The notes under the pieces were generated by a model. The model worked only from the letters and a program-made list of their open reading frames with translations, did no database searches and was not told the DNA's origin. A stretch of 34,175 nucleotides of DNA from Candidatus Liptonbacteria bacterium (GTDB taxonomy: Bacteria > Patescibacteriota > Minisyncoccia > UBA6257 > Colwellbacteraceae): positions 1 through 34,175 of the forward strand of contig JAHXGO010000005.1 of assembly GCA_019923695.1 (NCBI GenBank). Direction: 5' to 3'. Within the stretch, counting starts at the first letter, position 1. Each line of letters begins with the position of its first letter. Positions 13,907 through 16,419 of the stretch are shown here, in pieces. The translations under genes were made by a program, and so were the position numbers.

Positions 13907-13936
13907 AAAAATGCGGAGATTAAATCTCCGCATTTT
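13907..13936. terminator. Intrinsic terminator after ftsX, probably bidirectional
   Basis: AAAATGCGGAGAT, loop TAA, ATCTCCGCATTTT is a perfect inverted repeat with a T run on one side and an A run on the other. It can end ftsEX transcription rightwards and would also stop leftward transcripts that run past the small RNA. Confidence 0.85.
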
Positions 13937-13944
13937 CTTTCTAC

Positions 13945-14018
13945 AAAAAAATGCTATCGTCAGAGGGAACTAGACTTTCATGATTGCTCATAATCACCCA
14001 GCTCCATAAACGATAGCA
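13945..14018 (-). ncRNA. Candidate small structured RNA of about 70 nt
   Basis: On the minus strand a consensus promoter (TTGACA, 16 bp, TATAAT) is followed about 6 nt later by TGCTATCGT, and the unit ends with ACGATAGCA plus seven T. The two ends form a 9-10 bp stem, so the 3' half of that stem doubles as an intrinsic terminator. Inside, GGAGCT can pair with AGTTCC (one G-U) and TGATT with AATCA around ATGAGC. There is no open reading frame of useful length. I do not recognise an RNA family: it does not fit SRP RNA, 6S, tmRNA, RNase P or the riboswitches I know. The promoter and terminator are seen directly; the exact ends are inferred. Confidence 0.65.
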
Positions 14019-14023
14019 TAGTA

Positions 14024-14051
14024 ATTATACCTAAGGCATTTTTTTTGTCAA
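14024..14051 (-). promoter_or_regulatory. Consensus promoter of the small RNA
   Basis: Minus strand TTGACA (14046-14051), 16-bp spacer and TATAAT (14024-14029). Both hexamers are perfect sigma-70 consensus, the best promoter in the window, and no protein gene follows it. Confidence 0.8.
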
Positions 14052-14146
14052 GTGGCTGTATAACCGCACCCACTTTTGCACTCTTGAGACCTTAGAGGTA
14101 TTTTATTTTGTAAAAAATATAGCGATGACCTTTTGGCGAAGAAACA

Positions 14147-14338
14147 TTGGAACCGAAATCAACCAACCCAAAAACAAATCCAAAGGAAACGGTTATTCAC
14201 GTCAAAGAACTAGTTATCTCCAAGAGAAAAAAGTTAAAACAATGCGCTCAAAAACTCCATTGGCAACTTGCTCTTGAAGGCACGATTATTCCTGTCCGCA
14301 CTATTGGAAAAATTCTGAAGTTGTTGATTTTGCAATGA
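14147..14338 (+). pseudogene. Transposase/integrase relic (IS481/IS3-like, helix-turn-helix part)
   Basis: A 63-codon frame contains CAQKLHWQLALEGTIIPVRTIGKIL, which resembles the second helix-turn-helix region of rve-type transposases (pattern KLHW.L..EGI...RTIGKIL). It is preceded by a basic, Asn/Pro-rich linker typical of that position. In another frame just upstream, MTFWRRNIG could be the preceding residues, implying a frameshift. The DDE catalytic domain is missing and the frame ends just before tRNA-Gln. Identification is by eye only. Confidence 0.45.
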
Positions 14339-14370
14339 TATCATATGCGGGAAACCGAAACTTTACTAAA

Positions 14371-14663: not shown

Positions 14664-14687
14664 AGCACTATGCTATAGCATAGTGCT
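14664..14687. repeat. 24-bp perfect palindrome
   Basis: AGCACTATGCTA followed directly by its reverse complement TAGCATAGTGCT. It has no T tract on either side, so it is a poor terminator. It could be a binding site for a dimeric protein or a cruciform. Confidence 0.85.
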
Positions 14688-16022: not shown

Positions 16023-16046
16023 AAAATTGAAAAATAAAATGATATT

Positions 16047-16076
16047 TATAACAAAACGAAGCTCTGATATATTGAA
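16047..16076 (+). repeat. 30-bp interspersed repeat, copy C
   Basis: TATAACAAAACGAAGCTCTG followed by ATATATTGAA. It differs from the copy at 17122-17151 at four positions over 30 bp, all transitions. In frame it encodes ITKRSSDILN in the upstream extension of the DUF4258 reading frame. Confidence 0.75.
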
Positions 16077-16089
16077 CCAGAATTTTGAT

Positions 16090-16419
16090 ATGTCTTCCGA
16101 CGAAAAAAAAATTCATTGGACTTCTCATGCCAAAGCGAAAATGAGATTTTACGCTCTATCTGAATCAAGAATTAAAAGGATAATCAATTATCCGGACAGA
16201 ATTGAAGAGGGGATAGCTTTTGATACCATCGCTTTAATGAAAGATATTTCAGGAACAAAAAAATCGCAGGAGATTTGGACAATGATTCAAAAAAAGAACA
16301 AAAAAATAATAGTTATCAGCGCTTGGCGTTATCCAGGAAAAACAAAGCCGGACAATCCCTTGCCTCGCAAAATTCTTATAGAAATCAGTGAGGCCTTATT
16401 AATTAAAAACAATGTATAA
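16090..16419 (+). CDS. DUF4258-like protein of unknown function
   Basis: From the chosen ATG, 109 aa: KKIHWTSHAKAKMRFYALSESRIKRIINYPDRIEEGI matches the DUF4258-type pattern (a His in WTxHA, LS...I..V...P.R.E.G), followed by EIWTMIQKKNKKIIVISAWRYPGK. The fold is thought to be RelE/BrnT-like, but no toxin activity should be assumed. The track start (TTG, 16027) and the ATG at 16039 add a segment encoded by the interspersed repeat, so I prefer the internal start at 16090. It overlaps scpA by 8 bp and so probably belongs to the scp operon. The role is unknown. Confidence 0.72.
   Translation: MSSDEKKIHWTSHAKAKMRFYALSESRIKRIINYPDRIEEGIAFDTIALMKDISGTKKSQEIWTMIQKKNKKIIVISAWRYPGKTKPDNPLPRKILIEISEALLIKNNV

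Follow-up and report, generated by a model that had tools for sequence, protein, structure and literature searches.

The window, which is the whole 34,175-nt stretch of DNA analysed here, carries on its minus strand a consensus promoter that reads directly into a 69-nt hairpin ending in a run of T residues. The reading that we prefer, with confidence a little short of even, is that this unit encodes a small noncoding RNA of ~75 nt, restricted to its lineage and strongly transcribed, that would act through its structure and not through extended base pairing. The remnant of an IS481-like element lies just upstream of the promoter, and the apparent tendency of such elements to sit against promoters may be a more novel result than the hairpin RNA itself. 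The features discussed, together with others observed nearby, are listed in Table 1.

Table 1. Coordinates of the minus-strand unit and of neighbouring features in the window
Feature	Positions	Strand	Remarks
Intrinsic terminator, bidirectional, 14 bp	13907..13937	-	Back-up 3' end; ends ftsX on the plus strand
T7 tract	13945..13951	-	Follows the closing stem without a gap; probable 3' terminus of the short form
69-nt hairpin RNA	13951..14019	-	MFE -32.9 kcal/mol, z = -6.2
13-codon ORF MLSFMELGDYEQS	13978..14019	-	ATG at 14019, on or close to the predicted transcription start
Perfect sigma70-type promoter	14024..14051	-	-35 TTGACA at 14051-14046, 16-nt spacer, -10 TATAAT at 14029-14024
IS481-like right-end remnant	14057..14133	-	Transposase C-terminus ...ECKSGCGYT and terminal repeat GGTTATACA; ends 5 bp upstream of the -35
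Interval without recognisable gene	14134..14370		~240 bp, from the IS remnant to tRNA-Gln
63-codon TTG-start ORF	14147..14338	+	No Pfam match
Perfect 12-bp palindrome AGCACTATGCTA/TAGCATAGTGCT, then TGGTGATTTT	14664..14687		Downstream of dnaX
130-aa TTG-start ORF	16027..16419	+	Upstream of an scpA-like gene; Pfam matches below threshold: DUF4258, a RelE-like nuclease family

Perfect promoter and self-terminating hairpin on the minus strand

Perfect promoters, defined as TTGACA and TATAAT separated by 15 to 18 nt, were counted over the 422-kb genome. A first-order Markov model predicts 0.03 of them per window and 0.41 in the genome; four were observed in the genome, and the minus-strand TTGACA-16-TATAAT is the sole 12/12 promoter in the window. 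The promoter that the initial annotation had called near-perfect and the strongest in the window is thus real and unique there. The layout on the minus strand is TTGACA-16-TATAAT-TACT-ATGCTATCGTTTATGGAGCTGGGTGATTATGAGCAATCATGAAAGTCTAGTTCCCTCTGACGATAGCATTTTTTT, with 4 nt between the -10 and the hairpin. Since self-closing terminators of this span are expected only ~0.1 times per window in random sequence, the presence of one right behind a perfect promoter is not a matter of chance.

The hairpin consists of an 11-bp closing stem (ATGCTATCGTT/GACGATAGCAT, the final pair being U-G), a 3x4 internal loop, a 10-bp inner stem (GGAGCUGGGU/GUCUAGUUCC), a 2x2 loop (GA/AA), and a 6-bp apical stem (UUAUGA/UCAUGA) capped by a GCAA tetraloop. 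Its free energy of -32.9 kcal/mol compares with a mean of -15.1 kcal/mol for shuffled sequences, none of 200 equalling it, and the pairs of the minimum free energy structure have a mean probability of 0.96. These results bear out the earlier description of a roughly 70-nt unit whose ends pair over 9-10 bp and run into seven T. The nested stems described at the same time (GGAGCT/AGTTCC and TGATT/AATCA) are present in kind, with the inner stem longer, at 10 bp, and the apical one formed by UUAUGA/UCAUGA; the unpaired purine-rich stretches were not recovered, as only 15 of the 69 nt are unpaired and the longest run is 4 nt.

On the minus strand, 6 of the 27 pairs of the hairpin are G-U. Folded as the plus strand, the same sequence reaches only -18.2 kcal/mol and the inner stems are lost, because every one of the six non-Watson-Crick pairs in the stems is a G-U pair of the minus strand. 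The fold therefore belongs to the minus strand, that is, to the direction of the promoter. This bias would fit an RNA read from the minus-strand promoter and not an inverted repeat kept for DNA reasons, and it is the one direct sign of selection on the unit.

A read-through form of ~115 nt, ending at the second terminator, is possible; the linker that it would add is mostly U and A. Two tandem terminators separate the unit from the convergent ftsX, and a site between convergent units with two terminators behind it would also suit a promoter-terminator insulator, in which leftward transcription ends at once and keeps the transcription of dnaX and the tRNA apart from that of ftsX. For such a purpose, however, a terminator alone would suffice, and a strong promoter and an elaborate 69-nt fold would be left unexplained, so that we consider this function improbable.

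Other perfect promoters

The three remaining perfect promoters of the genome precede the genes for 23S rRNA (rrl), RNase P RNA (rnpB), and EF-Tu (tuf). At the first of these (L077), the LSU match found by cmscan begins 200 bp downstream of the promoter; at the second (L080), the gene encodes RNase P RNA of class A, with a match to RNaseP_bact_a at E = 5e-28 and 90 bits, compared with a gathering score of 100; at the third (L078), the promoter lies upstream of EF-Tu. Given that the other three drive 23S rRNA, RNase P RNA, and EF-Tu, strong transcription of the hairpin RNA from its perfect promoter is well supported by analogy. By the same association, we infer that few transcripts of the cell are likely to be stronger than the hairpin RNA, which would probably be abundant. 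Little appears to be known about noncoding RNAs in Patescibacteria, for which we found no dedicated study in the literature, and a promoter shared in kind with those of rRNA, RNase P RNA, and EF-Tu would point to an abundant RNA missed by protein-centred annotation.

Two other promoter-hairpin units were observed. After typA in a relative, a perfect promoter precedes a two-hairpin RNA (genome G002; L069 1501-1595 and L075 1501-1595, the copies lying 1.8 kb apart) with a z score of -7.8 and a T-run end, for which L069 gave no Rfam match. Adjoining an NYN-domain gene, a perfect promoter on the minus strand of L070 (genome G001, near 1501-1593) is followed by a self-terminating hairpin of ~60 nt with a z score of -2.7.

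An IS481-like element lies against the promoter

The IS remnant upstream of the hairpin RNA is ~95% identical to a copy located directly upstream of rnpB in the same genome (L080/L090), a copy that has integrase core domain matches. Both copies, at the hairpin RNA and at rnpB, end exactly 5 bp before TTGACA, leaving the promoters untouched. We compared the right ends (...TTATACA) of ten IS copies, a small sample drawn from this genome, other Patescibacteria, and one plasmid of Nitrosophilus labii. A -35 matching at least 5 of 6 positions at +5, with a -10-like hexamer at normal distance, was found at seven of the ten (the window copy, L080/L090, L088, L092, L093, L097, and L098), a count that is 6 under automated scoring, which places the Nitrosophilus end at +4, while inspection by eye gives AATAA-TTGACT (+5). 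This promoter spacing was not seen in the ISKpn28-type copies inspected on Klebsiella plasmids.

An 88-nt match to the region upstream of rnpB had raised the possibility that the IS end includes the -35. This was rejected: the boundary of the IS is GGTTATACA, the 5 bases beyond it differ from copy to copy, and a near-identical copy (L091) is not followed by TTGACA. In two copies, L088 and L097, a 5-bp AATAA duplication is found at both ends of the IS, which places the -35 in the target DNA; a clean target duplication is absent in the remaining copies with a readable left end. The promoter is thus probably older than the IS and the hairpin RNA's own, and the comparison of ends suggests that this IS481-like group inserts against promoters while sparing the target gene. 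Repeated insertion against a -35, if true, would give bacteria a counterpart of the yeast Ty elements, which target sites upstream of promoters, and IS insertion points could then mark real promoters in uncultured genomes.

Homology searches and coding potential

That no known RNA family fits, as proposed from the sequence, was upheld by cmscan, with no Rfam family at or above its gathering threshold for the hairpin RNA. BLAST searches of 60 relatives (26 genomes of the same family and 34 of the same order) detected no homologue and gave short matches only (14-39 nt), those inspected being mostly coding sequence or partial. A covariance model built from the single sequence matched itself with 107 bits and gave no other match at E <= 5 in the 60 relatives under strict filters. 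No family-wide repeat was found, nor any match to the hairpin RNA in viral contigs, phages, or plasmids. In the ftsX-adjacent regions of 29 relatives, where gene order differs and some loci were read on the ftsE side instead, no equivalent promoter-hairpin unit was detected.

Conservation in relatives, examined with a covariance model, had been put forward in the initial annotation as the test of its proposal; with no homologue, and so no basis for covariation, in the 26 same-family and 34 same-order genomes, the case for function is weakened by that annotation's own standard. The relatives searched all belong to other genera, none to the same genus, and since the nearest share only ~60% FtsX identity, the absence is weak evidence against a fast-evolving small RNA and does not prove a recent origin.

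The lack of conservation in the relatives searched also fits the runner-up to a structure-acting small RNA, namely a functionless transcribed relic: a promoter with a leader or attenuator hairpin whose downstream gene was lost by genome reduction or by an IS-linked deletion. The locus is rearranged: next to the unit lie a truncated remnant of the IS and the ~240-bp interval in which no gene is recognisable. A relic would nevertheless be expected to decay in a 422-kb AT-rich genome, whereas the consensus promoter and the 27 paired positions are intact and all six wobbles favour the transcribed strand. We regard this origin as conceivable but doubtful.

A BLAST search of the own genome (95.9% complete) with a 118-nt query returned only the query itself at E <= 10; for comparison, matches as short as 14 nt did surface in relatives. 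This search revealed no extended complementarity to a target mRNA of the kind that defines RNA-OUT and the cis-antisense RNAs of transposons or plasmids, and in the absence of a second match, action through a long antisense partner is unlikely. The unit does have its own promoter and its own intrinsic terminator within the 50-300 nt span of generic bacterial sRNAs, and this size and organization are typical of trans-acting sRNAs that regulate mRNAs through short seeds. We nonetheless consider a trans-acting antisense sRNA rather improbable: the scarcity of unpaired nucleotides argues against seed pairing, a stable GNRA tetraloop forms the apex, the search of the own genome gave no second match, and the read-through form would contribute only its U- and A-rich linker.

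The sequence had been described as encoding no protein, which holds for anything longer than 13 codons; at the 5' end there is an ORF of 13 codons (MLSFMELGDYEQS), a length that arises by chance at better than even odds, and it is probably incidental. The position of its ATG, 5 nt past the -10, could indicate a leaderless mRNA for a 13-residue peptide, but the start codon is buried in the 11-bp closing stem, and together with the chance expectation this makes such an mRNA very improbable.

Proposed explanation

For the structure-acting small RNA that we favour, transcription would start within a few bases of the hairpin base from the unit's own perfect promoter. The inner hairpin would fold first, during transcription, and the 11-bp closing stem last, just before the T7 tract, releasing the polymerase at U7, so that the whole molecule would double as its own terminator. 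What results should be a stable, abundant rod, double-stranded almost throughout and with a GNRA loop. From the scarcity of unpaired sequence, we infer that it would most likely act by binding or titrating a protein; a structural role is the other mode that we envisage.

A more far-reaching proposal combines both parts of this work. It would hold that the hairpin RNA is a previously undescribed abundant structural RNA, expressed at a level comparable to RNase P RNA and with a housekeeping function limited to this lineage of Patescibacteria, and that insertion of the adjacent IS481-like group is directed to a point exactly 5 bp from -35 hexamers on their upstream side, which spares the target gene. 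We put this forward as a speculative and, taken as a whole, unlikely combination.

Comparison with known systems

The strong promoter and rod-like hairpin, together with the neighbourhood of dnaX, which in Bacillus adjoins the SRP RNA gene, could suggest a very divergent universal RNA, either SRP RNA or 6S RNA. The likeness to bacterial SRP RNA (RF00169) extends to the GNRA-type tetraloop, but the conserved apical motif of SRP RNA is missing from the hairpin RNA. Among 61 genomes of the order, SRP RNA was never detected above the cut-off (one weak match looked spurious), nor was Ffh (TIGR00959), although nearly all control genomes were positive for each. With neither detected, there would be no partner to bind and identity with SRP RNA is unlikely; SRP RNA in disguise was largely ruled out by the missing RF00169 match, the missing Ffh, and the missing apical motif. 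In 6S RNA, two helical arms flank a large, central single-stranded bubble, and here the largest internal loop is 3x4. Neither SRP RNA nor 6S RNA is among the cmscan matches at E <= 10, and we judge a divergent universal RNA extremely improbable. As a separate observation, this order of Patescibacteria seems either to lack the SRP pathway or to carry it in unrecognisable form.

A weak cmscan match at 13963-14010 was to RF04336 (Plastid-petD D5; 12.8 bits, E 5.9 and 2.7 in two scans). The hairpin RNA resembles domain 5 of group II introns in the AGC/GUU at the stem base, the 9-10 bp lower stem, and the GNRA loop, but the upper stem and internal loop are unlike and there is no surrounding intron. 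Identity with domain 5 was rejected as chance level, the score being far under the gathering score of 65.5.

RNA-OUT of IS10 is an antisense RNA to the transposase mRNA and is located inside the IS. At ~70 nt, with a strong promoter, a single stable stem-loop, and an IS association, it resembles the hairpin RNA, which, in contrast, lies outside the IS remnant, shares its direction with the transposase, and is matched by BLAST nowhere else in the genome; RNA-OUT is not among the cmscan matches at E <= 10. The plasmid copy-control RNAs RNA I and CopA are likewise short, strongly promoted, hairpin-based, and self-terminating, but they oppose an overlapping target transcript, whereas the strand opposite the hairpin RNA holds nothing but the spacer behind ftsX, and the hairpin RNA has too small an unpaired loop for a kissing complex. 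Although it occurs in two copies and has no sequence or structural similarity to the hairpin RNA, the two-hairpin RNA after typA (L069, L075) shares with it a perfect promoter, short hairpins, and a T-run end.
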